Part shown: in pieces, positions 1,863-35,345 of the stretch
Layout: every line of letters begins with the position of its first letter
Position numbering within the stretch: position 1 is the stretch's first letter
DNA from: Affinundibacterium amnicola
Lineage (GTDB): Bacteria; Pseudomonadota; Gammaproteobacteria; Burkholderiales; Burkholderiaceae_D
Length of the DNA stretch: 64,000 nt
Direction: 5' to 3'
NCBI RefSeq assembly: GCF_014284275.1
Contig: NZ_JACOFU010000004.1
Span: 124,001 to 188,000, forward strand
Translations under genes and position numbers: made by a program
Notes under the pieces: generated by a model
What the model was told of the DNA's origin: nothing
The model's database searches: none
What the model saw: only the letters and a program-made list of their open reading frames with translations

Positions 1863-1866
1863 CACT

Positions 1867-11788: not shown

Positions 11789-11866
11789 AATAAACTTTTT
11801 ATTTGCGATTAAGTCATTACTAAATCACGACTTATCTTCAGCTCAACGAAGATGTGGCCACGCAAT

Positions 11867-13249: not shown

Positions 13250-13693
13250 ATGCACAAAATGGACGCACTAGACCAACAACTGATTAGCTTATTACGCACC
13301 GATGCCCGAATGAGCATTGCCACGCTTGCACACAAGCTCAAAGTATCACGTGGCACCATTACCAATCGTATTACCAAGCTTGAAGACGATGGCATCATCG
13401 TTGGCTATACAGTTCGTTTGCGACCAGATGCACAACAGAATGAAATTCACGCATGGATTAGCATCGCCGTCGAAGGTAACGAAACCCGTGCAGTCATTGC
13501 TTCATTATTGGGTGAGCCAGGAATAGAAGAAATTCACGACACCAATGGTCGCTGGGATTTATTAGCAAGCTTGCGTGCCACCAATTTATCGGAACTGTCC
13601 TCGGTACTAGAAAGAATACGGCTGATCAAGGCAATCCAAAATACTGAAACGAGTATTCATTTGCAAACCTACCGCACATCCAGCAAAACATAA
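13250..13693 (+). CDS. Lrp/AsnC family transcriptional regulator
   Basis: The 147-residue protein has the Lrp/AsnC layout: an N-terminal winged helix-turn-helix (LDQQLISLLRTDARMSIATLAHKLKVSRGTITNRITKLEDDGII, split here only for description, residues 6-50) and a C-terminal RAM ligand-binding domain. It probably senses an amino acid. It is divergent from the ornithine cyclodeaminase-family gene with 252 bp between them, and most such pairs are regulator and target. An ATG at 13259 is an equally good start, as there is no clear ribosome-binding site before either. Confidence 0.88.
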   Translation: MHKMDALDQQLISLLRTDARMSIATLAHKLKVSRGTITNRITKLEDDGIIVGYTVRLRPDAQQNEIHAWISIAVEGNETRAVIASLLGEPGIEEIHDTNGRWDLLASLRATNLSELSSVLERIRLIKAIQNTETSIHLQTYRTSSKT

Positions 13694-18274: not shown

Positions 18275-18313
18275 GCAAAAACTCTTGGCATTCTCAAAGA
18301 AAAATAGGTTAAC

Positions 18314-19316: not shown

Positions 19317-20204
19317 ATGCTAACCATACGCAATCTTTCTAAAACCTATGACAACGGCGTGCATGCGCTTAAATCCATTTCCTTAGATATCGAACCGGGA
19401 TTATTTGGTCTGCTTGGCCCCAATGGCGCGGGTAAATCATCCTTGATGCGCACCATCGCGACTTTGCAAAAAGCTTCGCATGGCCAAATTAGTTTTGATA
19501 ACAAGGATGTGATTCAAAACCCCAACATCTTACGCAGTTGCTTAGGTTATTTACCGCAAGAATTTGGGGTCTATCCTAAAGTATCTTGTTATGACTTACT
19601 TGATCACATCGCCTTACTGAAAGGCGTGGTAGATCATAAAGCGCGCAAAGCGCAAATTGAACAGTTGCTACATCAAACCAATTTGTATGAGGTGCGCAAA
19701 AAAGATGTGAGTTCGTATTCAGGCGGTATGCGTCAACGCTTTGGGATTGCGCAGGCCTTACTTGGTTCGCCGCGCTTGATTATTGTGGATGAACCGACCG
19801 CCGGGCTTGATCCACAGGAGCGTAATCGCTTCCACAATTTATTGTGCGAAATCAGTGAAAACGTCATCGTCATCCTTTCCACCCATATCGTCGAAGATGT
19901 CAGCCAATTGTGTCCTAACATGGCGATCTTGATTGATGGTGCAGTGTGTTTACAAGGCAAGCCAGCACATCTCATTCAAGAAATGGATGGCAGCATCTGG
20001 AGCAAGATGCTACCGCGCAATCAAACTGCACAGTACAAAGAAAACTTCAACGTCATCTCTGAGCGTCTAGTCACCGGGCAAACACAGATCGTGATACAAA
20101 GTGAGTTCCAACCAGAAATCGGTTTCGAACTGATTTCTGCCAGTTTAGAAGATGTGTATTTTGCGACCTTGAAAAAATTTGAAAAGGGAGCGCAACATGC
20201 TTAA
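19317..20204 (+). CDS. ABC transporter ATP-binding protein (exporter type)
   Basis: The 295-residue ATPase has Walker A GPNGAGKSS, Q-loop LPQEFGVYP, signature YSGGMRQRFG, Walker B LIIVDEPTAGLD and H-loop STHIVED. It resembles the CcmA/NatA-like drug and lipid exporter class, with an extended C-terminal region of about 90 residues. It overlaps the next gene by 8 bases, so ATPase and permease are translationally coupled. Its divergent neighbour is a LytS/LytTR pair that likely controls it. Confidence 0.93.
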   Translation: MLTIRNLSKTYDNGVHALKSISLDIEPGLFGLLGPNGAGKSSLMRTIATLQKASHGQISFDNKDVIQNPNILRSCLGYLPQEFGVYPKVSCYDLLDHIALLKGVVDHKARKAQIEQLLHQTNLYEVRKKDVSSYSGGMRQRFGIAQALLGSPRLIIVDEPTAGLDPQERNRFHNLLCEISENVIVILSTHIVEDVSQLCPNMAILIDGAVCLQGKPAHLIQEMDGSIWSKMLPRNQTAQYKENFNVISERLVTGQTQIVIQSEFQPEIGFELISASLEDVYFATLKKFEKGAQHA

Positions 20205-23200
20205 TCGCTTAGTCCTATTCGAATTAAAACTGTATCTTAAACAGGCGGGATTCTGGCTCGGCATTTTATTGTTTTGCGCATTGGCTTCGCTCATCACGAC
20301 CCAGCGCGGCTCGGCTTTTTTGTACGCAAACTCCTCCTACGCGATTACCCAAACGCTACTTTTTATCTCGCCTAATATTATTTTTCTGGTGTGTGCCTTA
20401 GCAACACCCGTATTGCTGCGTGACAGTCAATATAAAACCGAGTCCATGATATTCACCACGCCGCTCGACAAGTTTCACTACATGATGAGCCGCTTTTTGG
20501 GACTATTCTTTGCGGCGCTACTAGTGATGTTTGCGATGTTGCTCGCCATGATAGTGACGAGCTTCTTTTTAGACGCCAAGCAAATAGGCCCATTCAGGCC
20601 GCATTACTATTTATCCAGCTTTGCCATCTTTATCATGCCTAGCGTTTTGCTATGCACGTCTATCATTTTTGCCACCGCAATTTTTACCAAGAATATGTTA
20701 GCGGTCTATGTGGCTGCGATTGTTGTGTACGTGTTGTACGTGATCGCTTCCGTATTAGGTAACTCTCCTTTGTTAGCCAGATCTTCACCACTCACCAGTG
20801 GCAATTATGGATTTTCTGCCTTGTTGGAGCCTTACGGCTTGATCGCCTACTTTGAGCAATCCGCATATTGGGTAAACACACAAAGAAATCAGATGGAACC
20901 GCAACTCTCTGGCAGCTTATTGAGTAATCGTTTGCTGTGGATCGCGATCAGCCTATCGATGTTCGCTTATACCTATCAACGATTCACATTCAAATTACAA
21001 GAAGAACGTTCTAAAAAAGTGGAATTAGAAACGACCACCTCTGGATTAAAGATTCAGCCTTATCAAGCGGTCGTCCCCAACCATCAGTTTGAGGATTTCC
21101 ATATCGATATTTGGTTTTCAAAACTCAAAATAGAATATGCAAGCTTGGCCAGAGCGAAAGTCTTTTGGGTATTAATGATATTGACGATAGTTTTTACAGC
21201 GGTCCATCTGACGGTGGAAATGTTGACAGGCCCCATCAATGGCGCCCAGCCTTATTATGCGTCGAGCGAATTAATCTTAGAATCGCTGTTGGATCCCTTC
21301 ATCATCTTCGGGAAATTGGTCGCCGTCATCTATGCCGTTGAATTATATTGGAATGACAGAGCGGTCAATGCGTATGCGATTATTGATGCAACACCGACCA
21401 GCAACTTTACTTTCTTTCTCGCGAAACTCAGCAATGTCCTAGCGATTCTCTTTAGTCTGATCACAGCGAGCATGTTGACCGCGATTGTCTTTCAATTGCT
21501 GCGTGGCATAACAGACTTCAATTTCTCCGCCTATGCCCTGCTTTACTATTACGCAGGTGTACCAATTCTGTCGGTGGCTTTATTGAGTTTGCTTTTGCAG
21601 TGTTTTGCGAAACACAAAGCAGTCGGATTTTTGCTTGCCATCGGTGTCTTCAGTCTCGATATTTTATGGAAGGCACTAAACGTCAAGCATCCTTTGCTGG
21701 TATTCGCCTACAGTCCGAAGTTTTATTTCTCCGAAATGGCAAACACAATTTATCACCACGAGGCTTTCCATTGGTACAGCTTCTACTGGCTATCATTAGG
21801 TGCCATCTTTGGCCTGCTGGCGGTGCAATTTTGGCGCAGGGGTGAGCACTTGATTGCCACATCATGGACGCGCAGTAGTAAAGGTTGGTTAGCTAGTTTT
21901 GTGATGTGTTTTATTGCTTCAGGTAGCTACGTTTTTTATCAGACCAATGTATTCAATACCTACATCAACGCGAAAGACAAATTGGCGTGGATGGAACAGT
22001 ACGAGAAACAATACGGTCAATATAAGGATTTGCCGCAACCGACCATCACTAGCGTCAACTTTCAGGTGGATATAGAACCGGAACAACGCTTATATCAGGC
22101 CAAGGCTCAGCTCCAAATCACGAATCAAAGCGCGCAGCCTATTAGCAAAATTTTAGTCAATGTACTCAAGCAACCACACCTACAACAGAGTATGCAGATC
22201 AAAGGTGCAAAACTGATTTCTTATGATGCTACATATCAAAGCTATTGGTTTGCGCTGGAACCCGCGATGCAAGCAAACGAGACACGAGATGTGGAGTTAT
22301 CCTTGGCGGTCACACACAATGCTTTTGCTAAATTAGATGGTGAACATTGGGTGACCAAAGGTGGCAGTTATATTGAATTGGAAGATGTGTTGCCACAGTT
22401 TGGTTTCGATTCACGCTATATGATCAGCGATGAACAAGAGCGTAAAAGCCGTGGCTTAGCGTCTTCTAAATTGGCGATTCCTAGTGAGCGCGATCAACTT
22501 GCAAAAGAAGATCGTGCGCATTTTGAAGCCACACTGTCGACACCGCTTACCAGCCGCCAAACGATGGTGACGGTCGGCCAATTACAGCGGCAATGGCAGC
22601 AAGAGGGGCGTCAATTTTTCCACTACAAAGCATCGCATAAAGTCGCATTGCAATTGGCAATGATCTCGGCGCAATTTGCCATAAAAGAAGCGCGGCATAA
22701 TGGTGTGGATATTCGCCTTTATCGCAGTCCTAAACATGATAAAGATGACGCCTTGGTACTGGATGCCTTGACTAAAACAATGGATTATTTTGCGACGCAT
22801 TTACAAGCGTATCCTGATAAGCAGTTCACCGTGGTGGAATTACCGTACTTTGCTAAAACGCAATCATTTGGTAGCGCGCAACCCGGCATGTATCTGGGTG
22901 TGGAAAATCGCTTCTTTAACTTAGATAATCGAGGCGCTGAAAAGAACCCTTTATTAAATGGCGTCTCGCACGAATTTGCGCATCAATTTTGGGGATTTGC
23001 GATTGATCCGAATCACCTTGGCGGCTATTCCATGTTGACGGAAGTGTTGAGCAAATACATAGAACTCGTCATGATGAACAAGCTCTACGGCGAGACGGCA
23101 AACTTGGAGGCGATACATCAGGCAATCGACCGTTACTTACGCTTACGTCCCTATAGCCAAAACACCGAACGTCCTTTGTTTAGTGTTGGTATGGAACCGC

Positions 23201-23745
23201 ATATTTATTACAACAAAGGCCAGCATAGTATGCACGCGTTAATGGGCTTGATTGGCGAAGAGAAAATCAATATCGCGCTACGTAATTTACTCACAGATTT
23301 CGCGTATCCACGTAAGCCAACTTCTTTGGACTTATTGAATCTGTTTTATCAACAAGCCGATGCTGCGCAGAAGAAGGTGATTGATGATTTATTCAAGCGC
23401 GTCGTATTTCATGATTTCACGGTACATAATGCAAAATCGGTGCAATTGGCAAATGGTGAATACGAGACGACTATTGATCTCCGTACGCTCAAATTTGTCG
23501 TGAACCAAGCCAATAATCTTGAAGAGAAAGAACGCATTGATGAAGAAATCGAAGTCGCGCTGTTTACCAATTTCCCAGCCGAAAAACAAGCGGACAGAAT
23601 TTTGCTAACGAAAAACCTATTCACACAAGATCGCAGCGTTCTCAAACTTCGTAGCTCTGAACGTCCGCAGTATACTCAGATCGATCCAAGACGACTGCGT
23701 ATCGACCGGACACCGGGGGATAATTTGTTCAAGATTGAAAAATAA
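20197..23745 (+). CDS. ABC permease fused to an M1-type zinc aminopeptidase domain
   Basis: The 1182-residue protein has two ABC-2-type permease blocks (about six membrane segments in residues 1-260 and a second set in 300-600), then a C-terminal M1-like metallopeptidase domain. The zinc site is HEFAH (His925-His929) with the third ligand Glu949 in TEVLSKY, and a GMYLGVENRFF segment upstream stands where M1 enzymes have their substrate-binding motif. I start it at the ATG at 20197 because GGGAG lies 6 bases upstream; the longer frame begins with TTG. The peptidase domain is placed outside the membrane by topology if the helix count is even. Function is unknown; cleavage or recognition of an exported or resisted peptide is inference. 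Confidence 0.9.
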   Translation: MLNRLVLFELKLYLKQAGFWLGILLFCALASLITTQRGSAFLYANSSYAITQTLLFISPNIIFLVCALATPVLLRDSQYKTESMIFTTPLDKFHYMMSRFLGLFFAALLVMFAMLLAMIVTSFFLDAKQIGPFRPHYYLSSFAIFIMPSVLLCTSIIFATAIFTKNMLAVYVAAIVVYVLYVIASVLGNSPLLARSSPLTSGNYGFSALLEPYGLIAYFEQSAYWVNTQRNQMEPQLSGSLLSNRLLWIAISLSMFAYTYQRFTFKLQEERSKKVELETTTSGLKIQPYQAVVPNHQFEDFHIDIWFSKLKIEYASLARAKVFWVLMILTIVFTAVHLTVEMLTGPINGAQPYYASSELILESLLDPFIIFGKLVAVIYAVELYWNDRAVNAYAIIDATPTSNFTFFLAKLSNVLAILFSLITASMLTAIVFQLLRGITDFNFSAYALLYYYAGVPILSVALLSLLLQCFAKHKAVGFLLAIGVFSLDILWKALNVKHPLLVFAYSPKFYFSEMANTIYHHEAFHWYSFYWLSLGAIFGLLAVQFWRRGEHLIATSWTRSSKGWLASFVMCFIASGSYVFYQTNVFNTYINAKDKLAWMEQYEKQYGQYKDLPQPTITSVNFQVDIEPEQRLYQAKAQLQITNQSAQPISKILVNVLKQPHLQQSMQIKGAKLISYDATYQSYWFALEPAMQANETRDVELSLAVTHNAFAKLDGEHWVTKGGSYIELEDVLPQFGFDSRYMISDEQERKSRGLASSKLAIPSERDQLAKEDRAHFEATLSTPLTSRQTMVTVGQLQRQWQQEGRQFFHYKASHKVALQLAMISAQFAIKEARHNGVDIRLYRSPKHDKDDALVLDALTKTMDYFATHLQAYPDKQFTVVELPYFAKTQSFGSAQPGMYLGVENRFFNLDNRGAEKNPLLNGVSHEFAHQFWGFAIDPNHLGGYSMLTEVLSKYIELVMMNKLYGETANLEAIHQAIDRYLRLRPYSQNTERPLFSVGMEPHIYYNKGQHSMHALMGLIGEEKINIALRNLLTDFAYPRKPTSLDLLNLFYQQADAAQKKVIDDLFKRVVFHDFTVHNAKSVQLANGEYETTIDLRTLKFVVNQANNLEEKERIDEEIEVALFTNFPAEKQADRILLTKNLFTQDRSVLKLRSSERPQYTQIDPRRLRIDRTPGDNLFKIEK

Positions 23746-23799
23746 CCTGGCTGAAACCTAAAAATAAGGTCACCGAACATTTTGTAATATTGAAGGAGC

Positions 23800-23832
23800 A
23801 AAGGCCTATAAGTCGACGACTTGTAGGCCTTT
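23800..23832 (+). terminator. Bidirectional terminator hairpin after the ABC-M1 gene
   Basis: AAAGGCCTATAAGTCG and CGACTTGTAGGCCTTT form a 16-bp stem with one G-U type mismatch around an overlapping centre. It separates the plus-strand ABC operon from the convergent minus-strand sugar operon ending at 23981 and could serve both. Confidence 0.8.
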
Positions 23833-23980
23833 GTCTATTTATATCTAATAAAGTGACTTCTGCGCAAACCGACAAGCAAAAGATGCAAATTGAATTGTAG
23901 GATCCTTGCTAATGGCTACGCTTATTGATGGTGAACCGCGCTGAATATCAATACACAAGGTAAAACGTACCGCATTGCGA

Positions 23981-25039
23981 TCACTCAGCAATACCAATTA
24001 ACTTTCGCAATGCGACTGCATCCACCGCACTCGCAGCAAAATCATCGAACGCACGCTTGGCCGTCGGAATAATGTGGCGTTTAATAAATTCTGCACCTTC
24101 GCGTGCGCCAGTCTCACTATCTTTCAGACAGCATTCCCATTCCAGTACTGCCCAACCACTGTAATCGTACTGGGCCAATTTACTGAAGATGGCAGTGAAA
24201 TCAACCTGGCCATCACCCACGCTACGGAAACGGCCTGCTCTTTCCAACCAAGGGGCGTAGCCGCCATAAACACCACATTTGCCGGTAGGATTGAACTCGG
24301 CGTCCTTGACGTGGAACATACGAATGCGCTCGTGATAGATGTCGATGAAATCGAGATAATTCAGTTGCTGCAGAACGAAATGACTTGGGTCATACAACAT
24401 ATGACAACGCTCATGTTGACCAACTGCGTCTAAAAAACGTTCAAAGCTCAAACCATCATGCAAATCTTCACCGGGATGAATTTCATAGCAGAGGTCGACA
24501 CCGTTTTCTTGATAAATATCCAGTATCGGCTTCCAGCGTTTTGCTAATTCAGCGAATGCAAGTTCGACCAAGCCATTCGGACGTTGCGGCCACGGATACA
24601 TATAAGGCCAAGCTAAAGCGCCAGAAAATGTTACGCTGGCATTCAATTTTAAGCGACGTGATGCCTGTGCCGCGAGTTTGAGCTGTTCGGTCGCCCACTG
24701 CGTTCTGGCGGCTGAATTGCCATGCACATGCGTTGGTGCGAAGCCGTCAAAAAGACTCTCGTAAGCAGGATGAACCGCTAAACACTGCCCTTGAAGATGC
24801 GTCGACAACTCGCTAATAACCAAACCATGTTCAGCAAGTTTGCCTGCTACTTCATCACAATAAATCTGGCTGATGGCAGCCTTATCTAGATCGAAAATAT
24901 GGCCAACATTGCTCGGCATTTGTACTCCAACGAAGCCTTTGTCGGCCGCCCATTTAGCCAAACCATCGAGCGTGTTAAACGGTGCCTCACCGCGAATAAA
25001 CTGCGCGAGAAAAATTGCTGGACCTTTGATGGTTTTCAT
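23981..25039 (-). CDS. Sugar phosphate isomerase/epimerase-type TIM barrel
   Basis: The 352-residue protein is an AP-endonuclease-family-2 (xylose isomerase-like) TIM barrel. Metal-site residues are visible in order: Glu in DLCYEIHPGEDL, Asp and His in YDPSHFVLQ, His in FHVKDAEF, Glu in AVLEWECCL. No signal peptide is seen, so it is likely cytoplasmic. Members of this family act as 3-keto-glycoside beta-eliminases (as in levoglucosan and C-glycoside breakdown), epimerases or isomerases. As the last gene of a nine-gene cluster with Gfo/Idh/MocA, GMC and DUF1080 proteins, an isomerase or eliminase acting on the 3-keto product is the best guess. It lies 112 bp after the Gfo/Idh/MocA gene, across an A-rich leader. 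Confidence 0.85.
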   Translation of the reverse strand: MKTIKGPAIFLAQFIRGEAPFNTLDGLAKWAADKGFVGVQMPSNVGHIFDLDKAAISQIYCDEVAGKLAEHGLVISELSTHLQGQCLAVHPAYESLFDGFAPTHVHGNSAARTQWATEQLKLAAQASRRLKLNASVTFSGALAWPYMYPWPQRPNGLVELAFAELAKRWKPILDIYQENGVDLCYEIHPGEDLHDGLSFERFLDAVGQHERCHMLYDPSHFVLQQLNYLDFIDIYHERIRMFHVKDAEFNPTGKCGVYGGYAPWLERAGRFRSVGDGQVDFTAIFSKLAQYDYSGWAVLEWECCLKDSETGAREGAEFIKRHIIPTAKRAFDDFAASAVDAVALRKLIGIAE

Positions 25040-25150
25040 AGATTCAATCTCATTTGAATTTTTAGTTTGGTTTTAATTTTAGTTTTAGTTGTAGTTTTAT
25101 TTTTGATGTCATTAATACGGAACATCGTAAGCCTTGCCATTTCAGACTTA

Positions 25151-26308
25151 TCAGGTTTTCAGCGAAACCCAAGTGCTATCTTGTGCAGATGAAGCAATGC
25201 AAGCTTCGATAAAACAAAGATCGAGATAGGCAGGGATAGCAATATGCTCAGCATTGCTATTGGCACCAACATGCGGCTTAACTGGTTCTGCGAGGATGTT
25301 TGCGAACTCCGTATACAACACAGCAAATGCTTCGAGATAGCCTTCTGGATGTCCAGCGGGAATCAGACTAATATCTCGGCTCGCCTGACTAATTTGATGG
25401 CGTGCTCTACTCAATATTTGCATAGCACCATCTAGCGTAGAAAAACTCAATTGATTGGGTTGTTCTTGACACCAATCCAACGATCCTTTATCACCAAAAA
25501 TTTGCAGCCGCAAATGATTTTCCTTGCCAACCGCTACCTGACTACTTAGCAGACTGCCGCGTGCACCATTGGCATAGCGCATAAAGACTTGCGCATGGTC
25601 ATCCAGCACTCTACCGCGCACGAATGAATGTAGGTCTGCCGCAATTTTGGTGGGTGTTATACCAGAAACGAAATGTGCCAAATTAAAAGCATGCACACCG
25701 ATATCACCAAGGCAGCCAGCGGCACCTGCTTGCTTGGGATCAGTACGCCAGCTTGCTTGCTTTTGTCCAGACTGTTCGAGTGCTGTGGCTAACCAATCTT
25801 GACTATATTCGACTTGAACAATACGTATTTCACCGAGGTCACCGCATCGCACGCGTTCACGAGCTTCCCTTATCATTGGGTAACCTGTGTAGTTATAAGT
25901 GACAAATACATGCTTGCCAACACGTTCACTGATGGTAATCAGTTCACTTGTTTCAGCACTGGTCATGGTCAAAGGTTTATCACAGATAACATGAATGCCA
26001 TGCTCTAAAAAACATTTCGCAATGGGGAAGTGCAAGTGATTCGGCGTGACGATAACTACAGCCGTGATGCCGTTTTCAATTGCTGCCTCGGCCTGTGCCA
26101 TCGATTGAAAATCAGAATAACTACGATTTGCAGGAATTCCAATTTCTTCCGCACTGGCAGCGGCGCGCAGCGGATCAGAAGAAAAACACGCTGCTTCGAG
26201 TGAATACCGATCACTGATACGCATGGCGATTCTGTGTACATTACCAATGAACGCACCCTGCCCGCCGCCGACCATGCCGATACGAATTTTTTGTTTTGAA
26301 TTGTTCAT
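25151..26308 (-). CDS. Gfo/Idh/MocA-family oxidoreductase (cytoplasmic)
   Basis: The 385-residue NAD(P)-dependent dehydrogenase has the N-terminal Rossmann fold (GMVGGGQGAFIGNVHR) and the family's catalytic Lys-Pro motif in ICDKPLT near residue 115. A later GDIGVHAFNLAHF segment carries the typical Asp and His of the active site. No signal peptide is visible. In glycoside 3-oxidation pathways this family oxidises or reduces the C3 hydroxyl/keto group, and it probably works in the cytoplasm with the TIM-barrel proteins on either side. It starts 26 bp after the preceding gene of the operon. Confidence 0.9.
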   Translation of the reverse strand: MNNSKQKIRIGMVGGGQGAFIGNVHRIAMRISDRYSLEAACFSSDPLRAAASAEEIGIPANRSYSDFQSMAQAEAAIENGITAVVIVTPNHLHFPIAKCFLEHGIHVICDKPLTMTSAETSELITISERVGKHVFVTYNYTGYPMIREARERVRCGDLGEIRIVQVEYSQDWLATALEQSGQKQASWRTDPKQAGAAGCLGDIGVHAFNLAHFVSGITPTKIAADLHSFVRGRVLDDHAQVFMRYANGARGSLLSSQVAVGKENHLRLQIFGDKGSLDWCQEQPNQLSFSTLDGAMQILSRARHQISQASRDISLIPAGHPEGYLEAFAVLYTEFANILAEPVKPHVGANSNAEHIAIPAYLDLCFIEACIASSAQDSTWVSLKT

Positions 26309-26334
26309 ACGAATTGTCAGAGCTTGCTTTAAAT

Positions 26335-27216
26335 TTAGACGTCACACAATAAAACAGCCCGCTTCAAAGAGCTGGCTTTTTCTTCAGGCGTAGTACCTGA
26401 GGGCGAAAATTCCTGCGCAACGTAACCTTGAAAACCGGTTGCGTGAATTGACTTCATAATCGCACGGTAATTTAGCTCCTGTCCCTCCGTAATTTCACCG
26501 CGTCCTGGGACTCCACCTGTGTGGTAATGCCCGATATAAGGTGTACATTTACGCAAACGGCGAATGATGTCGCCTTCATTGATTTGCACATGATAGATAT
26601 CGAACAGCATCTTCATATTTGGCGAGTCAATCCGCTTACACAATTCGAATGCCCAATCGCTGCTATCGGCCATATAGTCGAGATGGTCAATTCTGCTATT
26701 GAGTATTTCCATGTGTAATACGACGCCATGTCGCTCCGCGTGAGACATAATTTTCTTCAATCCATCGACACAATTTTTTAAACCGACTTCATTGTCCATA
26801 CCGCGTCGATTACCTGTGAAGCAGATCAGGTTTTTATAACCCGCTTTTGAGACTAACTCGATGTGTTCAAGATAGTTCTTGATGAGCGTTGGATGATATT
26901 GCGGGTCATTCCAACCTTTGGTCAAACCGATTTCCGCACCATTGCACATCGAAGAATCAATCTCGTGCATTTTCAAGATTGGCCAATCTTTTGGGCCAAC
27001 TAAGTCCACAGCAGAAAAACCGATCGTTTTTACCAAACCACAGAGCTCCGGCAGGCTCAGATGCGAAAATGTCCATCGACAAACCGAATGACGTATATTG
27101 CCCTTTAACGAACCCATAGTTTGTGCCTTCGCCAGATGAAAGGCACTCGGTGCGAGCATTGCAATGGTGCCGAGTGAGAGTTGTTTTAACATGCTACGAC
27201 GATCTAATGTGTACAT
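26335..27216 (-). CDS. Tat-exported TIM-barrel isomerase (hydroxypyruvate isomerase-like)
   Basis: The 293-residue protein begins with a twin-arginine signal (DRRSMLKQLSLGTIAML... cut after AKAQ near residue 32), then a TIM barrel of the sugar isomerase/epimerase family. Metal residues can be followed: Glu in LHMEILNS, Asp/His in FDIYHVQIN, His in GHYHTGGVPGR, Glu in AQEFSPSG. The GHYHTGGVPGR stretch resembles hydroxypyruvate isomerase. Export of a cofactor-containing folded protein by Tat places part of this pathway in the periplasm. The precise substrate is unknown; isomerase, epimerase or eliminase are all possible. Confidence 0.85.
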   Translation of the reverse strand: MYTLDRRSMLKQLSLGTIAMLAPSAFHLAKAQTMGSLKGNIRHSVCRWTFSHLSLPELCGLVKTIGFSAVDLVGPKDWPILKMHEIDSSMCNGAEIGLTKGWNDPQYHPTLIKNYLEHIELVSKAGYKNLICFTGNRRGMDNEVGLKNCVDGLKKIMSHAERHGVVLHMEILNSRIDHLDYMADSSDWAFELCKRIDSPNMKMLFDIYHVQINEGDIIRRLRKCTPYIGHYHTGGVPGRGEITEGQELNYRAIMKSIHATGFQGYVAQEFSPSGTTPEEKASSLKRAVLLCDV

Positions 27217-27287
27217 AGATTTCTTTCTTTATTCAAAGCAAAAACAGCAACCACGCTAAAGCCCTACAATTTGTTTACCCGACGAGA

Positions 27288-27947
27288 TTAAGCCCAGGCG
27301 CGCTGCCCTTTGACATAAGGTACATTGCCGTCATAACGACCTGGTACCGCCACATAACGTAAGGTTTTCGTTGCACCAGTTTCGGAGGTAAAGAAGCCTA
27401 ATAAGGTCAGCTGTTTTACCATGGTGTAAAAATGCTTTGGCAGGCTTTCGAATTCTTTTTGCCGCGCAAAATCGTTGTCTTTATTTTCCGTATCGAGAGC
27501 GTGACGTCGTTCTTTATCTCTTTCGGATTGGCCGGCATTAAAGGTTTTGGCTTCTTTTTCCAAGCGCACTAACATTTCATGCTTTTGCTTAGCACTCATA
27601 CTAAAGAAACTTTTTTGATATTGCTCCAAGCACAAACTCGGGAAGTTCTTCAGACCATCGACAAAGGCATCTTGTTGTGCTTTGGTGTAGCAATCACGCA
27701 CCATTACCTCCATGAAGCGCCCTACCTTGGCGGCTTTAGCGCCAGGTGTATCCGTTTTAGGAATAATAGTTTCCGCTATTTCATCAAGTAAATTTATCTC
27801 GCGCGCAGTCAACCGGAAACGGATATCACTTGATCCAGCGGTATAAGATAAGCCCGTTCCTAGATTTAGAGCAAATGCTTCGCCACCAACCACTGCCATT
27901 CCCGTCATCGTAGCGACTAACTGCAAGAGTTCTCTTCGATTCATCAT
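27288..27947 (-). CDS. Gluconate 2-dehydrogenase subunit 3-family small subunit, Tat signal
   Basis: The 219-residue protein is of the gluconate 2-dehydrogenase subunit 3 family, the small chaperone/targeting subunit of membrane-associated FAD dehydrogenases. It begins with a twin-arginine signal (MNRRELLQLVATMTGMA). The mature part contains the family's RLTAREINLLDEIAETIIPKTDTPGAKAA stretch (residues about 45-75). Its role is to carry the signal-less GMC flavoprotein encoded just upstream through the Tat pathway as a complex. It starts 46 bp after the GMC gene. Confidence 0.9.
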   Translation of the reverse strand: MMNRRELLQLVATMTGMAVVGGEAFALNLGTGLSYTAGSSDIRFRLTAREINLLDEIAETIIPKTDTPGAKAAKVGRFMEVMVRDCYTKAQQDAFVDGLKNFPSLCLEQYQKSFFSMSAKQKHEMLVRLEKEAKTFNAGQSERDKERRHALDTENKDNDFARQKEFESLPKHFYTMVKQLTLLGFFTSETGATKTLRYVAVPGRYDGNVPYVKGQRAWA

Positions 27948-27993
27948 TTTCCTCTTAGATTTTTTTGCTTTCTTCTTCGGTAGGTATCAAGCG

Positions 27994-29673
27994 TTATAGA
28001 TTTCCACGTTTAAGCTCATTCACGGCAAAATCGGCTGCACGTGCAGTCAACGCCATATACGTCAAGGAAGGATTAACACACGAACTTGAAGTCATGCATG
28101 CACCGTCGGTAACAAAAACGTTAGGCGCATCCCAGACTTGATTGTTTCCATTTAAAACTGAAGACTTGGGGTCGCGTCCCATGCGCGCTGTACCCATTTC
28201 ATGGATACCTGATCCTACAGCGTAGCCATTGTCGTAGGTGTAAACATTCTTTAGACCTGCCGCAGTGAGCATTTCTTTCGCATCGTTCACCATATCGATA
28301 CGCATACGTTTTTCATTGTCTTTCAGTTCGACGTCCATCGCCAAAACAGGCAAACCCCATTTATCTTTTTTGGTACGGTCGAGACTGATCTTATTCGAAT
28401 GATCGGGCAGCATTTCGCCAAAGGCCGTGATATTGAAACCCCAATTCTCAGCCGGTACACTCATTGCTTCTTTCAACTCTTTACCAATCGTGAATTCAGC
28501 AATCTCAACGCCTCGTCCACGCCCCGCTCCACCTTGATAGCCAAAGCCACGCAGATAATCGCGCTTATCGTCATAGACATTACGGAAACGCGGAACATAA
28601 ATACCTGTCGGGCGACGTCCAAAATCATACTTATCGCCAAAACCTTCCACCGTACCACCCGCGCCTAATTTGAAATGATGATCCATCACATTGTGACCGA
28701 GCTCGCCGCTACTACTACCTAAACCACCTTCCCACACATCGGTGGCTGAGTTCATCAGTACCCAAGTTGAGTTAAACGAAGATGCACAAACAAACACGAT
28801 CTTGGACTTGAATTCATAGGTTTGATTGGTCTCTGCATCTAACACTTCAACACCACGTGCACGTTTCGTATTCTTGTCATAAAGAATTTGCGTCACAATA
28901 GAAAATGGACGCAAAGTCAAACGATTAGTCGCCATTGCCGCAGGCAAGGTTGAAGATTGCGTACTGAAATAGCCGCCAAACGGGCAGCCACGCCAGCACC
29001 GGTTGCGATACTGGCAGTTCACGCGATTTTGTAAAGGTTCGGTAATGTTTGCAGAGCGCCCAATAATCAAATGACGCTGACCTTTGTAAATTTCTTCCAA
29101 CCGTTTCTTCACATGTTTCTCAGCGCAATTCAGTTCCATTGCGGGCATGAAGTGTCCATCGGGTAAAACATCCAAACCATCTCTACTACCTTGTATGCCT
29201 GCGAATTTCTCCACATAACTATACCAAGGCGCGAGATCGTCATAACGAATCGGCCAATCAACACCGATTCCTTCCTTGGCATTCGCTTCGAAATCCCAGC
29301 GGTTAAAGCGATAACTTTGACGTCCCCACATCAACGAACGACCACCTACCTGATAGCCACGGAACCAGTCAAATCGTTTTACTTCCGTGTAGGGGCTTTC
29401 ACTGTCTTTCGCCCAAAAATCAAGTACCGTTTCATTCAAAGGATAATCACGTTTCAACACTGGATAGTCTTCGATCATCTTTTGTGTTCGACCACCACGA
29501 TGAGGAAACTCCCAATTCTCTTTCATGGCGTTGACATAATCCTTCACGTGCTCCACATTGCGACCACGTTCCAGCAACAAAACGTTCAAGCCTTTTTCGG
29601 TTAACTCTTTGGCTGCCCAACCACCACTAATGCCAGAGCCAATCACAATCGCGTCATAAAAATTCTCGTCCAT
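27994..29673 (-). CDS. GMC-family FAD-dependent sugar dehydrogenase with Fe-S cysteine motif
   Basis: The 559-residue flavoprotein has the FAD fold AIVIGSGISGGWAAKEL at the N-terminus and the GMC active site near the C-terminus: His in GSGIHEMGTARMG and Asn in SSCVNPSLTYM. A motif Cys220-x5-Cys226-x3-Cys230 followed by Pro and Gly matches the position where bacterial FAD glucose dehydrogenases bind a [3Fe-4S] cluster, so it should be an electron-transferring dehydrogenase, not an oxidase. No signal peptide is present; it is expected to hitch-hike with the Tat-exported small subunit. With the DUF1080 protein next door, oxidation of a sugar or glycoside at C3 is likely. Confidence 0.92.
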   Translation of the reverse strand: MDENFYDAIVIGSGISGGWAAKELTEKGLNVLLLERGRNVEHVKDYVNAMKENWEFPHRGGRTQKMIEDYPVLKRDYPLNETVLDFWAKDSESPYTEVKRFDWFRGYQVGGRSLMWGRQSYRFNRWDFEANAKEGIGVDWPIRYDDLAPWYSYVEKFAGIQGSRDGLDVLPDGHFMPAMELNCAEKHVKKRLEEIYKGQRHLIIGRSANITEPLQNRVNCQYRNRCWRGCPFGGYFSTQSSTLPAAMATNRLTLRPFSIVTQILYDKNTKRARGVEVLDAETNQTYEFKSKIVFVCASSFNSTWVLMNSATDVWEGGLGSSSGELGHNVMDHHFKLGAGGTVEGFGDKYDFGRRPTGIYVPRFRNVYDDKRDYLRGFGYQGGAGRGRGVEIAEFTIGKELKEAMSVPAENWGFNITAFGEMLPDHSNKISLDRTKKDKWGLPVLAMDVELKDNEKRMRIDMVNDAKEMLTAAGLKNVYTYDNGYAVGSGIHEMGTARMGRDPKSSVLNGNNQVWDAPNVFVTDGACMTSSSCVNPSLTYMALTARAADFAVNELKRGNL

Positions 29674-29725
29674 ATTTTTCTTCTTAAAGTGTATTTCTCA
29701 ATCTTTTTCGGGTTTCGTGTTTTGT

Positions 29726-31345
29726 TCAAAGACGGCGGATCTTCATGTTTCTAAAACTGACCGCATCACCATGATCCTGCAAACCAATATGCCCTTTTTT
29801 TGATTCGCCAAAACCTTGCATATTGCTGAATTTGCTTTTCTTAACTAAATCTTTCCAGGCGTCTGTCCATAAACGGGTATTCAAAACATGACGTCCATTC
29901 AGATAGAAATCCAATTCGCCGCGGTCACTCACAATATCGACGAGATTCCATTGTCCTGGAGCTAAGGCAACGGCCTCGGTTGCCTCAATCAAATCGTATA
30001 AATCCCCTGCGCGATGTTTGAAAATTTTTCCGTCGGCGTGACCATCATTGTCTAACACTTGCATTTCTAAGCCCGTGTTCCAGGCGTAAGGAAACTGTTT
30101 CGCATCTTCGTTCACATACAGGAAAATGCCACTGTTACCGTTCTTCTGCAGCTTCCATTCCAATTGCAAATGGAAATGATCAAATTGTTCATCGGTGACA
30201 ATATCGCCACCTCCAGAGGTTTGCCATCCATCTTTTTTACTAACATCTAATTGCAATTCGCCTTGATAGATTTTCCAGGCGCTTCCAACTGACGCTTTAC
30301 CATAAGCGTGCCAACCTTGGGTGCTCTTGCCGTCAAACAGAAGTTTCCAACCATTGGCCTGCTCACTTGGTGTTAGCGCATTGTGAGGGCGAGCAGCACC
30401 TGCTTTTCGTGCCGCGATAACAGCTTTCAATCCACGTAAAGATTGTTCTACACTTTGCATCGGGCTTAATCCATTTGGGTACTCTTCCTGTTCAACCACT
30501 ATCCATTCGGTACCACCAACCTGAACATTCGCCTGATACAAAGCGTCCCAATCAATATTGTCTTGTCCGATGATGGTCGTATAAAATTTCCCACCATCGG
30601 TCTGAGCGGACTTCACCGGCAATTTGCTTTTATAGTGTGTCGTCAAGGTACGACCGGGATAACGCTTAACAAACAAAACAGGATCTTTACCTGCGTAACT
30701 CGTCCAGCCAACGTCTTGCTGCAAAATGACCTCATGTGGCGTATTTTTTGCAATAGCATCCCAATACGTTTGACCTTCAAAGGTGTTCATTTCGACGCTA
30801 TGGTTATGGAAACCAATTCGCATGCCGAATGGCCTTAACTGTTTAGACAGTGAACTTAAATCCTGCGCTAATAATTTCACACCGACAGGATCGCCCGCGC
30901 GCGCATCGCTTGGCACGATGAGCTTAGTGCATCCAATATCTTGATAAAACTTAACGACCTTGGCGAAGCTATCTGGCTTTAGCTGTGCGATAGCAACATG
31001 CGCACCCGATACTTGTAAACCGGTTTTATCCAAAAATCGTTTCAAACCTGGCGCATCATTTTTATAGAGGCCAAAATCTCCCGCGAATTCGACACCTTGG
31101 AATCCCATCGCAGCAAGCTTCTTTAGTGTGCCTTCAAAATCTTTACTAACATCTTCTTTTACAGACCACAGTTGCACACTCAGTTGAGGGAACTGAGTGG
31201 ACTTAACTGCATTCTGACTGCTTACGGGCTGACTATTTGCAGTCTGACTTGTTTGCCGGGCATGAACGATGCTGGGACTCAATAGGCTCAAACTCAACAA
31301 CATACCCACTCCCAAGTAGCTAATTTTGTGAAACGAATTTTTCAA
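29726..31345 (-). CDS. Secreted TIM-barrel isomerase fused to a DUF1080 (3-keto-glycoside hydrolase-type) domain
   Basis: The 539-residue protein has a Sec-type signal peptide (cut near residue 29, after VHA). Residues 50-310 are an AP-endonuclease-2/xylose-isomerase-like TIM barrel with Glu in GFHNHSVEMN, an Asp in LQQDVGWTS where the usual Asp-x-x-His has a Trp, and Glu in VVEQEEYPNG. From about residue 330 there is a DUF1080 domain (WKLLFDGKSTQGWHAYG, GNSGIFLYV, FYLNGRHV, GHIGLQDHGDAVSFRNMKIR). DUF1080 proteins cleave 3-keto-glycosides. The fusion suggests that cleavage and the following isomerisation or elimination are coupled in the periplasm. It lies 52 bp before the GMC gene. Confidence 0.9.
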   Translation of the reverse strand: MKNSFHKISYLGVGMLLSLSLLSPSIVHARQTSQTANSQPVSSQNAVKSTQFPQLSVQLWSVKEDVSKDFEGTLKKLAAMGFQGVEFAGDFGLYKNDAPGLKRFLDKTGLQVSGAHVAIAQLKPDSFAKVVKFYQDIGCTKLIVPSDARAGDPVGVKLLAQDLSSLSKQLRPFGMRIGFHNHSVEMNTFEGQTYWDAIAKNTPHEVILQQDVGWTSYAGKDPVLFVKRYPGRTLTTHYKSKLPVKSAQTDGGKFYTTIIGQDNIDWDALYQANVQVGGTEWIVVEQEEYPNGLSPMQSVEQSLRGLKAVIAARKAGAARPHNALTPSEQANGWKLLFDGKSTQGWHAYGKASVGSAWKIYQGELQLDVSKKDGWQTSGGGDIVTDEQFDHFHLQLEWKLQKNGNSGIFLYVNEDAKQFPYAWNTGLEMQVLDNDGHADGKIFKHRAGDLYDLIEATEAVALAPGQWNLVDIVSDRGELDFYLNGRHVLNTRLWTDAWKDLVKKSKFSNMQGFGESKKGHIGLQDHGDAVSFRNMKIRRL

Positions 31346-31390
31346 TTTTTGTCTCCAACTAAATGTCTATCTTTTGTTGATTTTCCTAAA

Positions 31391-32140
31391 TTACGAAGCC
31401 ACTTTCGTTTGTTCTGCTAGTAACGAGAATTGTCGTGGTGTCATACCAATCACTGCACGAAACTCTTTAGTAAAATAGCTTTGATCGCAAAATCCCGTTT
31501 CAGAAAACGCTTTCTTAATGCCATATCCCGTCGCTAATAATTTACAAGCTTGGTGAATGCGTAAGTGCTTGATGTACTGTATTGGCGTTTGCGAAAAATG
31601 TTTTTTGAATTTGCGTTCAAAGGTGCTTAAAGACATGCACGCCAGTTCCGCCAGATCAGCAATATTGATGTCATTCATATACTCGCGTTGCATGTACTCG
31701 ATACTCGATTTAAAGACCTGAAATGGTTCAATAATATTTTGCGACCGCTCTGCATCTCGACTAAAACCCTCCACTCCAACGATCACGCCTTTGCGGTTCC
31801 TAATCGGCGTTTTAGTCGTAAACAACCAAAACAATTTACCGTTCACACCGACCACGACCTCAAATTTGTCTTTGACCACAAGTGTCCCTGCCATCACAGC
31901 GAGATCGTCTTCACGAATACGACTGGCAACATCGTGACTCAAGAAATCAAAATCAGTTTTACCGATGACATCTTCGGCACTTTCCAAATCAAATTTTTCT
32001 TGCAGAAGTTTGTTGGCACAAACGAATTGCCCATTGCAATTTTTTGCAAAATAGAACGTATCGGAAAGTAGATCGAAGATGGCATAGGGTGACGAGATGC
32101 CGTGCTTCGCATAAAAATTCTTAACATCCATTGCCGTCAT
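31391..32140 (-). CDS. PAS-AraC family transcriptional regulator
   Basis: The 249-residue protein has an N-terminal PAS domain (residues about 18-130; YFAKNCNGQFVCANKLLQEKF and GVNGKLFWLFTTKTPI stretches) and a C-terminal AraC-type double helix-turn-helix (NIADLAELACMSLSTFERKFKKHF, then GFCDQSYFTKEFRAVIGMTPRQF). The PAS domain should bind a ligand or cofactor. The gene is embedded in the sugar operon, 45 bp before the DUF1080 gene and 48 bp after the transporter gene, so it is likely the local regulator and could autoregulate. Confidence 0.9.
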   Translation of the reverse strand: MTAMDVKNFYAKHGISSPYAIFDLLSDTFYFAKNCNGQFVCANKLLQEKFDLESAEDVIGKTDFDFLSHDVASRIREDDLAVMAGTLVVKDKFEVVVGVNGKLFWLFTTKTPIRNRKGVIVGVEGFSRDAERSQNIIEPFQVFKSSIEYMQREYMNDINIADLAELACMSLSTFERKFKKHFSQTPIQYIKHLRIHQACKLLATGYGIKKAFSETGFCDQSYFTKEFRAVIGMTPRQFSLLAEQTKVAS

Positions 32141-32188
32141 TGAATATCACAATCTGAAGTGAGAAATTTATCCGTCGCGAAGCGTAGC

Positions 32189-33484
32189 CTATGCAGCCAT
32201 TTTCTTGCTCTGGTGACGATCGTGCAACCAGATCGCCGCAAAAATTGGCAACAAAATTAGGGGCACCATCGCGATAGCTTGAAAGGATTCTCTTGACGCG
32301 ATTTGGATGACTTGGGCGGATTGCTCTGCAGTTAATGTAGCCAGTTTTTCAGCGCCACCGGCTGCGAGATTTTTTGCTTCATCGAAAATTTTCCCAAGCG
32401 CCGGCAATAGAAACTGTATCGCCATACCCCCAGTAAATCCCATCAAACCCAACGCCAAGGCACCACCACGAACAAAGCGTTCAGAGACAACCGCCAACAT
32501 CGTCGGCCACATAAAACAAACGCCAGCACCCCAAATTGTGGCTGCCAGTAAAGCGGTCACTGGACTATTTGCGCGGCTGAGTGCGAACAAGCCTATCGCT
32601 GCCAACAAACTACTCACCCACAACAAACCGATGCTGGATAACCGATGCGCAATCGGACCTGCAAAATGACGCATTACAAACATGAGGGTGCTAACATAGA
32701 TCAGAATGAAAATGCCACTCATTCCAACGGTATGACTCAAAGTAAGATCAACCCACTGACCGGGAGCGAGTTCGCTTGAGGTCGTCAACCACATGCAGCA
32801 TAAGAAGACCAAAAATTGCGGACGACGATACAGTTCACGACACATGTCTGCATAAGAAACACCCTGCGCAACACGCTCGGTGACGGGAAAAACTTGACCA
32901 CGCACTAGCATGATAATTGCGAAGGCTGGCAAGCAAAGCACCACCAAATTTGTTTGCCAAGGCAATCCAAAAGCTTTGACTGCAATACTGAATAATCCGC
33001 CAAACACAATGCCCGCTGGCCACCAGGCATGCAAGATGTTGAGGCGCTTAATCTTGTTATCAGGATCGATACTGACGACCAATGGATTCACTGCACCTTC
33101 GACGCCTCCCCATCCTAAGCCGGTCAACATTAAACCAATCAAGACGATGGTATAACTGCTCGCATCGACTGGGCGGATCGAAGCCCACAACACCAGTAAG
33201 CTTCCGACCAAGTTGCTCAAGGCAGAGAAAACCAAAATACGTTTGGAGCCCAAAATATCGACCAATGAGCTCCCGATGAGTAGTGTGAAAGCGAAACCAA
33301 GAAAGGTCATACCTAATGCCTGACCGACCATGGTTGCTGACTGTGCAGCATCAATCACATTGAAGATTTTCACACGCAAATCATCTGCTATTGCGGCGCG
33401 CACGGCGAAGCCTAAACCGATCGTAAAAATCGCCAAGTTCGAAGTAAACAACAAACGTGCATTGAAATTAGCTTTTGTCTCCAT
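32189..33484 (-). CDS. MFS transporter, likely sugar/glycoside uptake
   Basis: The 431-residue protein has about twelve membrane segments and resembles the FucP/NarK-like sugar MFS type seen in carbohydrate clusters (e.g. LTGLGWGGVEGAVNPLVVSIDPDNKIKRLNILHAWWPAG, residues about 115-155). It would carry the periplasmic products or the intact sugar across the inner membrane. Its ATG is preceded by AAAGGAAAGC. It is followed 48 bp later by the AraC gene and heads the tightly spaced part of the operon. Confidence 0.85.
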   Translation of the reverse strand: METKANFNARLLFTSNLAIFTIGLGFAVRAAIADDLRVKIFNVIDAAQSATMVGQALGMTFLGFAFTLLIGSSLVDILGSKRILVFSALSNLVGSLLVLWASIRPVDASSYTIVLIGLMLTGLGWGGVEGAVNPLVVSIDPDNKIKRLNILHAWWPAGIVFGGLFSIAVKAFGLPWQTNLVVLCLPAFAIIMLVRGQVFPVTERVAQGVSYADMCRELYRRPQFLVFLCCMWLTTSSELAPGQWVDLTLSHTVGMSGIFILIYVSTLMFVMRHFAGPIAHRLSSIGLLWVSSLLAAIGLFALSRANSPVTALLAATIWGAGVCFMWPTMLAVVSERFVRGGALALGLMGFTGGMAIQFLLPALGKIFDEAKNLAAGGAEKLATLTAEQSAQVIQIASRESFQAIAMVPLILLPIFAAIWLHDRHQSKKMAA

Positions 33485-33543
33485 TTGCTTTCCTTTTTTT
33501 AATGTATTGGAAATGCTTTATTTTTTGCATCGCGCCAAAACTT

Positions 33544-33566
33544 GCCTGCAAATTAGGCTTGCAAAT
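33544..33566 (-). promoter_or_regulatory. Direct repeat, candidate operator upstream of the sugar operon
   Basis: GCCTGCAAAT (33544-33553) and GCTTGCAAAT (33557-33566) are a 10-bp direct repeat with one mismatch and a 13-bp period, about 60-82 bp upstream of the MFS start on the minus strand. It is a candidate site for the PAS-AraC protein. The rest of 33485-33947 has no gene; it holds the presumed operon promoter and the short palindrome ATGTCGCGGACAT near 33631. Confidence 0.35.
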
Positions 33567-33947
33567 GAGACTTAATAAAATAAATTCAGTTCACTCACGC
33601 CGACTTTACAACAGCATATTTTTATTACGATGTCGCGGACATAGTAGCAAGCAAAATGACGAAGCACTATGGATAAATCCGCAAAAAATATAAGAAAATC
33701 GGCAAATAGGCATTTTTCATAGAAGTGATAAGACGACACAATGGTGCATTTTCTCCAAGCTTGCAGCACATCCTCGCTTCAATTCTTTGCAAGTTCAAAA
33801 ACTAAGATTGTTGATCACCAAAACAAACGATCCATTGTGCGCCACGGCATTTTTTCATTGAAATAAAATGTCGAGCTCTCCGAATCAAGGGGAGGTGACT
33901 TCGCTTTTCTTAAAACCAAATTAAGCCATGTTTATGATGGCGCGCAA

Positions 33948-35345
33948 CTAGATTTTTACCTCCATTACGCGGCCATTCTTACGACTACTCTCCGCCATAA
34001 AACCCATAATGTGGCTTTCGATCGACTCATCAATAGTTGAAGTCAATAGCGCTGGATTTTGCTGAGCAACCGCCTGTACAAAATCTTTGACGAGTAACCA
34101 ATCACCACCGCCATGACCACTGTTTTTGTATCCGGCAACATCCTCGGCATCAGGAACAAATCGCATCTCTTTTTTGGTTCGGAAATCATGAACAACGAGC
34201 TCATTCATATCACCAACCATATCACCCATCGCACCCATCACTCGTGTACGTATTCCGTGATACGCGGTAAAGGCTTCCATAGAAAAACTGGCCGTGACGT
34301 TGTCACTGAACTGTATGCTCGATACGTAATGATCGGGTTGGTCGTTATCCATGCGATAGACACAGCGGCCATAATTACTAGTTTTAAGTCTCTCGAGCGC
34401 AGCAAGTTTGCGATCAGGAACATTTTCAGGAATGTCTAAAACATGCGATCTGCCAACGACGTCGACATACTCCTTAATAGCGGAATAAGGGCAAGAGCGT
34501 TCGACCAGACATCCATCGGTACAACGAGCAGTACTACCTGCTGGTGCATTTTCGCGGCGGAACCATTTTAGATTACCCATCGCGACAATTTTTTCAGCTT
34601 TTTTATCAATGACCCATTTCATGATATCGAGGTCATGGCAGGACTTCGCTAAAATAATCGGCGTAGTCTGTTTTGAGTTATGCCAGTTGCCACGCACGTA
34701 AGAGTGCGCCATATGGGTGTGTTCAATTGGCTCAAGATGCTGCATGCTAATGACTTCACCAATTGCGCCTTTGGCGATCAACTCTTTCATCTTGACGAAA
34801 TACGGCGCGTATCGCAATACATGGCATACAGCGACAATTCGCCCAGTCTTTCTGGCCAAAGCCAAAATATTTCTACATTCTCTTTCCGTGGGCGCGATTG
34901 GTTTTTCCAGTAACACGTCGTAACCGAGACGCAAAGCTTGCATACAAGGCTCGTAGTGAAGATTGTCCGGCATCGAGATGATCACCGCATCTGCCATTTT
35001 TGGTTTTTTAAATACATCTTCCCAAGTATCGAATCGGTTCGCAGCCTCAATTTGATGTTTTTTTGCGTATTTCTCATTACGAAAAGCGACTGGTTCCGCG
35101 ACGCCAATCACTTTAAGTTGCTCCGGAAATTGCGTCGCATAATTTCCATAAACATTTCCTCGACTTCCAGCACCACAAGTAATCACCGTGACAGGTTTGG
35201 ATATGGGTTGGTGATTCGAATTTTCTCCAATCAGGTAACTATAAGTATTCTCTCCAACTCGCGCCAAAACATCCGTCGTGACAATGCCAGTTCCTAAACT
35301 TAAGCTGAGCGTTTTCAGTAAATTTCTACGATTCATTATGTTCAC
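33948..35345 (-). CDS. Tat-signal Gfo/Idh/MocA oxidoreductase (GFOR-like)
   Basis: The 465-residue protein carries an N-terminal twin-arginine-like signal (NRRNLLKTLSLSLGTGIVTT) and then a Gfo/Idh/MocA Rossmann domain (ITCGAGSRGNVYGNYA) with the Lys-Pro motif in LLEKPIAPTE and an active-site-like KSCHDLDIMKW. A Cys pair in RCTDGCLVERSCPYSA is typical of this long subfamily. Exported members such as glucose-fructose oxidoreductase keep their NADP tightly bound, so periplasmic redox on sugars is possible. It is on the same strand as the sugar operon but 463 bp upstream, so it may be transcribed on its own. Confidence 0.85.
   Translation of the reverse strand: MNIMNRRNLLKTLSLSLGTGIVTTDVLARVGENTYSYLIGENSNHQPISKPVTVITCGAGSRGNVYGNYATQFPEQLKVIGVAEPVAFRNEKYAKKHQIEAANRFDTWEDVFKKPKMADAVIISMPDNLHYEPCMQALRLGYDVLLEKPIAPTERECRNILALARKTGRIVAVCHVLRYAPYFVKMKELIAKGAIGEVISMQHLEPIEHTHMAHSYVRGNWHNSKQTTPIILAKSCHDLDIMKWVIDKKAEKIVAMGNLKWFRRENAPAGSTARCTDGCLVERSCPYSAIKEYVDVVGRSHVLDIPENVPDRKLAALERLKTSNYGRCVYRMDNDQPDHYVSSIQFSDNVTASFSMEAFTAYHGIRTRVMGAMGDMVGDMNELVVHDFRTKKEMRFVPDAEDVAGYKNSGHGGGDWLLVKDFVQAVAQQNPALLTSTIDESIESHIMGFMAESSRKNGRVMEVKI

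Follow-up and report, generated by a model that had tools for sequence, protein, structure and literature searches.

A cluster without a classical glycosidase

How might a bacterium open glycosides with a gene cluster that encodes no classical glycoside hydrolase? This question is raised by a stretch of 64,000 nucleotides from Affinundibacterium amnicola (contig NZ_JACOFU010000004.1, positions 124,001 to 188,000; hereafter the window), in which positions 23981-35345 hold nine open reading frames (ORFs), all on the minus strand. Cleavage of glycosides by oxidation and elimination has been recognised only recently, and its genetic variety is still being mapped. An original prediction, made from the letters of the DNA, had proposed a pathway of 3-keto-glycoside oxidation, cleavage and reduction for this cluster, and homology and synteny strongly support it. 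The ORF list and Pfam also bear out the predicted gene families and the lack of a classical glycosidase, as no such domain was matched in the nine proteins (Pfam, E 0.001). With considerable confidence, the cluster is assigned to glycoside utilisation by oxidation, elimination, hydration and reduction, a published four-step chain that, as judged from sequence, fits every core gene.

The suggestion that this is an undescribed variant holds only in small part. Each of the four steps has been published for Agrobacterium (PMC10628242), and in Caulobacter genetic evidence links a comparable set of genes to lactose use (PMC9007349). What is unusual compared with the known systems is a protein joining a TIM barrel to a DUF1080 domain, the mosaic make-up of the cluster, a carrier of the MFS type and an additional Gfo protein with a twin-arginine translocation (Tat) type signal.

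One predicted exported protein combines a TIM barrel with DUF1080

The DUF1080 domain and three TIM barrels had been listed side by side. All these domains were identified, but DUF1080 and one of the barrels are not separate proteins: a single gene, TIMDUF (29726..31345, TTG start), encodes a predicted exported protein of 539 amino acids with a hydrophobic Sec-like N-terminus, a TIM barrel (PF01261, residues ~53-312) and a DUF1080 domain (PF06439, ~332-539), the latter scoring 153.7 bits against a curated cut-off of 26.8. Here and below, export signals were judged from the RR motif and hydrophobicity alone.

In a sequence search of the PDB, the best solved relative of the TIM half was 8bvk (E 2.3e-18), followed by the barrels 8tcd, 8tcs and 8tct. 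8BVK is AtOGE, the 3-keto-O-glucoside beta-eliminase of Agrobacterium, whose metal ligands include H132, D163, H189 and E233 and whose catalytic residue is H134 (PMC10628242). In the pairwise alignment to 8bvk these five residues, and H66 as well, are identical in the TIM half and E161 is replaced by Gln; the counterpart of E39 could be matched only in a multiple alignment, the pairwise alignment being three positions off there. The seven positions (the E39 counterpart, H66, H132, H134, D163, H189 and E233) are invariant in eight aligned rows, the window and seven relatives. A pathway for degradation of C-glycosides such as flavonoids, which also relies on this chemistry and on TIM-barrel lyases (PMC10628242), is highly improbable for this cluster and was rejected: according to the same paper AtOGE is specific for O-glycosides, and no further small lyase-subunit domain was found among the nine genes by Pfam at E 0.001.

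For the DUF1080 half, the six best solved chains were found at E 3e-41 to 3e-36, with eight further weak matches; among the six are 8tda and 8rr2, the latter named '3-keto-disaccharide hydrolase domain-containing protein'. A 3-keto-O-glycoside lyase of Bacteroides is taken to be the DUF1080 protein reported by Kastner in 2024, which binds Ca. According to PMC13273386, the lyase accepts 4-nitrophenyl-3-keto-alpha-glucoside as a substrate, and hydration is deficient in the H275N variant; the DUF1080 domain may be better named a lyase than a hydrolase.

From these sequence relationships, the fusion is most likely bifunctional, a 3-keto-glucoside lyase that handles both beta- and alpha-glucosides. 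The full form of this proposal is given somewhat less than an even chance: in a two-headed lyase, the Mn-dependent TIM barrel would open beta-glucosides and the DUF1080 domain (Ca-dependent in the Bacteroides relative) alpha-glucosides, and, supplied by just one GMC dehydrogenase and by an MFS carrier dedicated to keto-sugars, one exported polypeptide would replace an anomer-specific set of glycosidases. If true, the joining of two unrelated lyase types in one protein would show that their roles are linked, the fusion would be a compact tool against glycosides of either anomer, and the cluster would point to an MFS carrier for keto-sugars.

The fusion could be identified at full length in four records, namely the window, UBA7693 (98% identity), Undibacterium seohonense (84%) and the metagenome-assembled genome (MAG) nzgw559 (78%), which rules out an assembly artefact as its source, and each domain is kept down to 77-81% identity. 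UBA7693 may belong to the window's own species. When the window was compared with L048 and L049, two of these records, both domains had nonsynonymous differences (pN) of 0.06-0.12 against synonymous differences (pS) of 0.69-0.77, indicating purifying selection, with pS near saturation and the pN/pS ratios accordingly rough. These relatives were obtained by a contig pattern scan that reached close relatives only (5 loci). Two plasmid records cover at least 80% of the fusion, H22 (examined by Pfam) and H17 (without annotation). G559 was rejected as a second bacterial fusion: its two domains had been given open frames of equal length, but they belong to separate ORFs that share a reading frame and are divided by stops. 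Nor is the window fusion the sole case of this architecture, since both domains are also joined in the haloarchaeon Natronococcus, where WP_256493433.1 of strain CG52 (Natronococcus sp.), annotated as 'family 16 glycoside hydrolase', carries PF01261 followed by PF06439 within one coding sequence. This archaeal protein shares the domain order of the window fusion, is 765 amino acids long and 24% identical, and among the 11 features listed around it there was no GMC oxidoreductase or sugar isomerase. Neither a TIM-DUF1080 fusion nor this Undibacterium locus was found described in the literature covered (titles and abstract openings, with subscription papers mostly outside).

The proposed steps from glycoside to glucose

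The oxidation step is assigned to the genes GMC (27994..29673; PF00732/PF05199, the N- and C-terminal GMC domains), a flavin adenine dinucleotide (FAD) dehydrogenase subunit predicted to oxidise glycosides at C3, and GMCs (27288..27947; PF13618, Gluconate_2-dh3, E 3.6e-37), its small subunit with a Tat-like signal. GMC matches the large subunit of fructose dehydrogenase at E 6e-35 and carries a group of three Cys (220, 226, 230) that may hold an iron-sulfur cluster. Going by family and signals, the two would be exported as a pair on the Tat signal of the small subunit and would oxidise the glucosyl C3 in the periplasm. The RR motif begins at residue 4 in GMCs and at residue 6 in TIM2 and GFO2. 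The exported fusion would then cleave the 3-keto-glycoside by beta-elimination, its TIM half attacking beta-glucosides as AtOGE does, and its DUF1080 half alpha-glucosides in the manner of the Bacteroides lyase. One protein could serve both anomers because of these two putative activities, of which that of the TIM half has its active-site residues in place.

The released 2-hydroxy-3-keto-glucal and/or 3-keto-glucose would be imported by the MFS transporter (32189..33484; PF07690, MFS_1). Hydration of the glucal to 3-keto-glucose is attributed to TIM1, also called HYD (23981..25039; PF01261), a predicted cytoplasmic enzyme for which the homology is very strong: phmmer aligned residues 1-350 of 352 with PDB 8ro4, '2-hydroxy-3-keto-glucal hydratase' and presumably AtHYD, at E 5.9e-169. 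No export signal was detected in TIM1 by motif and hydrophobicity. By analogy with the Agrobacterium operon, the last step, reduction of 3-keto-glucose to glucose, would fall to GFO1 (25151..26308; PF01408/PF22725/PF02894), a predicted cytoplasmic reductase of the Gfo/Idh/MocA family that matches PDB 3v5n at E 9e-118. A levoglucosan pathway was rejected, as GFO1 scored 119.5 bits against the cut-off of 650 for levoglucosan dehydrogenase (NF052479). The PAS-AraC regulator (31391..32140; PF08448, PAS_4, and PF12833, HTH_18) is a predicted local activator and probably activates the operon.

Related loci and the relation between the two lyase domains

The order of the genes is kept in three other records (L047-L049), except that GFO2 has no counterpart in the L049 stretch, and parts of the cluster recur in many loci; a chance gathering was therefore rejected. 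L047, the UBA7693 MAG, also has the flanking ssb gene and the protein of 20179-23745. The L048 and L049 stretches lack all eight of the flanking proteins that were tested, which places the cluster at another genomic site in these two. Of 16 further genomes sampled from the genus, none matched the fusion strongly (a weak DUF1080 match was obtained in one, E 9e-4) and none had a GMC match at E 1e-30. The own genome (4.58 Mb, 32 contigs) has a single DUF1080 match and, at E 1e-30, a single one to the GMC protein.

In the family sample (245 genomes), ten genomes carry a barrel 49-58% identical to the TIM half, and in none of them is it joined to DUF1080. Eight of the ten share the order AraC, GMCs, GMC, OGE, a gap of ~3.5 kb, HYD and GFO1 with a PAS-AraC relative (56-61% identical) in every one, and in L034 and L042, the two loci checked, ABC transporter genes occupy this gap (hence OGE/ABC loci below); L041 and L043 have the barrel alone. 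A separate weak DUF1080 match (24%) was observed just beyond the gene set of L042. HYD is 59-71% identical in related loci outside Undibacterium, and in those carrying both genes a GFO1 relative adjoins HYD or lies within ~3 kb. Where the window cluster has its MFS gene, ABC or nucleoside-type permeases are encoded in many related loci, though not in every one; relatives of this MFS gene were found beside HYD in L084 (58%), in L082 (44%) and in L071-L074 (30-33%).

In the phylum sample (398 genomes), the f13 loci L071-L074 combine HYD, GFO1, MFS, AraC and an OGE-type barrel; L075-L078 have a barrel without other parts of the cluster. L071 (7483-12588) and L072 (8414-15262) contain two GMC genes of different types with DUF1080 beside the second type, a layout that suggests oxidase-lyase pairs; L071 has its barrel and its DUF1080 domain in adjacent but unfused genes. 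These loci bear on whether the halves of the fusion act in tandem rather than on two anomers, the TIM half eliminating the aglycone, the DUF1080 half hydrating the glucal in the periplasm and the MFS carrier importing 3-keto-glucose. A QDHGD motif, likely the seat of the hydration His (numbering approximate), is kept in all four fusions and fits such a tandem. However, the pairing of DUF1080 with the second GMC type in L071 and L072 is as expected for parallel, not serial, roles, and retention in all four Undibacterium-type loci of the near-full-length TIM1 hydratase, in which no export signal was detected, suggests uptake of glucal into the cell. In L073, DUF1080 stands with the second GMC type, the one GMC gene in that stretch, and L074 has no DUF1080 match. 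On balance the tandem is considered rather unlikely.

Several observations nevertheless weigh against the two-anomer lyase and the pathway built around it. The split between alpha- and beta-glucosides is derived from single characterised relatives, the active-site residues of DUF1080 were mapped without certainty, and the AlphaFold models were too poor and were set aside, with a mean predicted local distance difference test score of 43.8 for the fusion and 51.4 for TIM2. TIM1 may act on imported glucal, or DUF1080 may already hydrate glucal outside. TIM1, TIM2, GFO1 and GFO2 all lie far under every curated NCBIfam cut-off. By Pfam, a cytochrome domain is not among the nine genes, unlike in the Xanthomonas and Hymenobacter loci treated below, and matches in the own genome to the cytochrome of the Xanthomonas locus were weak (best E 4e-5).

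A probable mosaic origin for part of the cluster

Identities and trees were compared after dropping matches below 60% of the query length and with one GMC per locus. The GMC of the window falls into one clade with those of six TIM2-type loci (support 100/100), whereas its AraC protein is closest to the AraC of the eight OGE/ABC loci. The TIM half is 51-57% identical to the barrels of OGE/ABC loci, and 55% and 53% to those of L071 and L072. The DUF1080 half is 38-47% identical to genes mostly near the second GMC type (L044, L071-L073, L079-L081, L084), with the exceptions of L082, near a first-type GMC, and L083, which has no GMC in its stretch, and only 24-29% identical to the DUF1080 genes of TIM2 loci. 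Because GMC groups with TIM2-type loci, and AraC and both fusion halves with others, the sequences support a mosaic origin of GMC as against AraC and the fusion, though not of all genes; in the HYD tree, the placement of the window beyond the Undibacterium rows is without full support.

TIM2, GFO2 and the range of substrates

TIM2 (26335..27216; PF01261) is a TIM barrel with a Tat-like signal and a putative role only. In the PDB it matched 3ngf (E 1.5e-16), psicose and tagatose 3-epimerases, and 6wn6, a 3-keto-D-glucoside 4-epimerase (E 3e-7; 1.9e-5 in a further search). The residues E170, D206, H230 and E269, kept in 8/8 aligned rows and 11/11 loci, form an E-D-H-E site of the isomerase/epimerase type in place of the HNH of the lyases. 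With 92.2 bits, TIM2 stays below the cut-off of 353.45 for hydroxypyruvate isomerase (TIGR03234). As a guess, TIM2 might widen the range of the cluster by isomerising or epimerising 3-keto-glycosides, for instance galactosides.

This raises the alternative that the cluster serves mainly one disaccharide, lactose or another galactoside, and not glucosides broadly, with TIM2 as a 3-keto-galactoside/glucoside 4-epimerase. The weak relation to 6wn6 and the lactose phenotype of a similar set of parts at the Caulobacter lac locus (PMC9007349) are in line with it, as is the own genome, where GH2_C has no match anywhere. Yet 3-epimerases outscore 6wn6 for TIM2, AtOGE acts on beta-glucosides, the Caulobacter lacABC genes also matter on salicin and raffinose (PMC9007349), and outside the cluster the genome has classical glycosidases, with three matches to GH1, two to GH3 and six to GH13. 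Such a narrow role is thus unlikely, and use of a wider set of glucosides is preferred.

TIM2 was found at 54-61% identity in 5 of 298 other genomes and at 28-37% in six more. Nine of the ten examined loci with TIM2 at 45% or more (L098-L102, L105, L107-L109) also carry HYD, a GFO1 relative (30-48%), a GMC of 67-71%, GMCs, an OGE-like HNH barrel and a DUF1080 gene, the last known from annotation in L109 and from sequence comparison in the other eight; the tenth, L110 of Parabacteroides, has TIM2 without the HYD, GMC and barrel set. This count leaves out the plasmid record H53 (of H53-H58) and weaker matches (L082, L104 and others). The set, in which the TIM2 barrel stands close to GMC, recurs in Gamma- and Alphaproteobacteria and in Bacteroidota, including Xanthomonas, Paracoccus, Palleronia and Hymenobacter, and such recurrence makes the role of TIM2 directly testable. 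Three TIM2-type loci (L101, L102 and L105, the last from Xanthomonas sacchari) encode a Gfo protein that is only 30-31% identical to GFO1 and forms a very long branch in the tree; given both features, the reductase may have been replaced there. L104, at 1097-13378 of a Croceicoccus plasmid, combines HYD, Gfo and GMC with genes for ThuA, DUF6379, a GH3 protein and a pair of TIM barrels, a layout that may use the same oxidation and elimination chemistry.

GFO2 (33948..35345; PF01408) is a distant Gfo/Idh/MocA protein with a Tat-like signal and a best PDB match at E 2e-15, and would be an accessory exported oxidoreductase. It remains far below the cut-offs for the glycoside 3-dehydrogenases BT_2158 (38.4 against 750 bits) and BT_2159 (37.1 against 650). 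It occurs in three of the four fusion records, the window, L047 and L048, and none of the 298 other genomes matched it at E 1e-60; the 12 plasmid relatives listed are 39-44% identical and mostly from Deinococcus and Streptomyces. In L047, GFO2 (4267-5693) is split over two frames and the contig begins with a second fragment of ssb (1-114), which may together be an assembly error.

Comparison with known systems

The GlycDH-AtOGE-AtHYD-Gfo operon of Agrobacterium tumefaciens (Bitter et al. 2023) resembles the cluster in its GMC-type dehydrogenase with a Tat partner, Mn-dependent TIM eliminase, hydratase and Gfo reductase, and differs in that the parts of PMC10628242 consulted describe no TIM-DUF1080 fusion, MFS, PAS-AraC, TIM2 or Tat-Gfo gene. 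The window GMC was likened to GlycDH by domains and RR motif, and GFO1 to the Agrobacterium Gfo by domain and synteny.

LacC of Caulobacter crescentus is presumably a cytochrome c. No such third dehydrogenase component was identified in the window locus, where the nine genes lack a cytochrome domain; unlike the fusion, the Caulobacter DUF1080 protein is single-domain. By gene descriptions, the LacABC locus is otherwise similar, with lacB/lacA, a transporter, two sugar epimerases, a sugar reductase and a DUF1080 protein of putative periplasmic location, and on lactose lacABC, the DUF1080 protein, the transporter, both epimerases and the reductase matter, while none of ten Pedobacter DUF1080 genes had a lactose phenotype, perhaps via redundancy (PMC9007349). 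The window shares with the lactose pathway a DUF1080 protein with a hydrophobic N-terminus near the dehydrogenase.

The DUF1080 lyase of Bacteroides thetaiotaomicron is assumed by us to work with Gfo-type dehydrogenases, not GMC, and Bacteroides DUF1080 3-keto-glycoside lyases were reportedly studied by Kastner in 2024 and Nasseri in 2024. The B. thetaiotaomicron protein (BT2157, PMC9007349) belongs to the same domain family, for which structures have been solved, but is single-domain.

Layout and surroundings

From the MFS gene through TIM1 the intergenic spacing is 26-111 bp, and GFO2 ends 463 bp upstream of these eight genes, a spacing with which it may be a separate transcription unit. A hairpin of 17 pairs (23798-23834) lies directly past the last gene of the cluster. 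Further on, an ABC ATPase and, after it, a protein of 1188 amino acids that has an M1 peptidase domain and matches ABC-2 membrane families weakly are encoded on the plus strand at 19317-23745, adjoined by a histidine kinase and a LytTR response regulator at 17561-19093.

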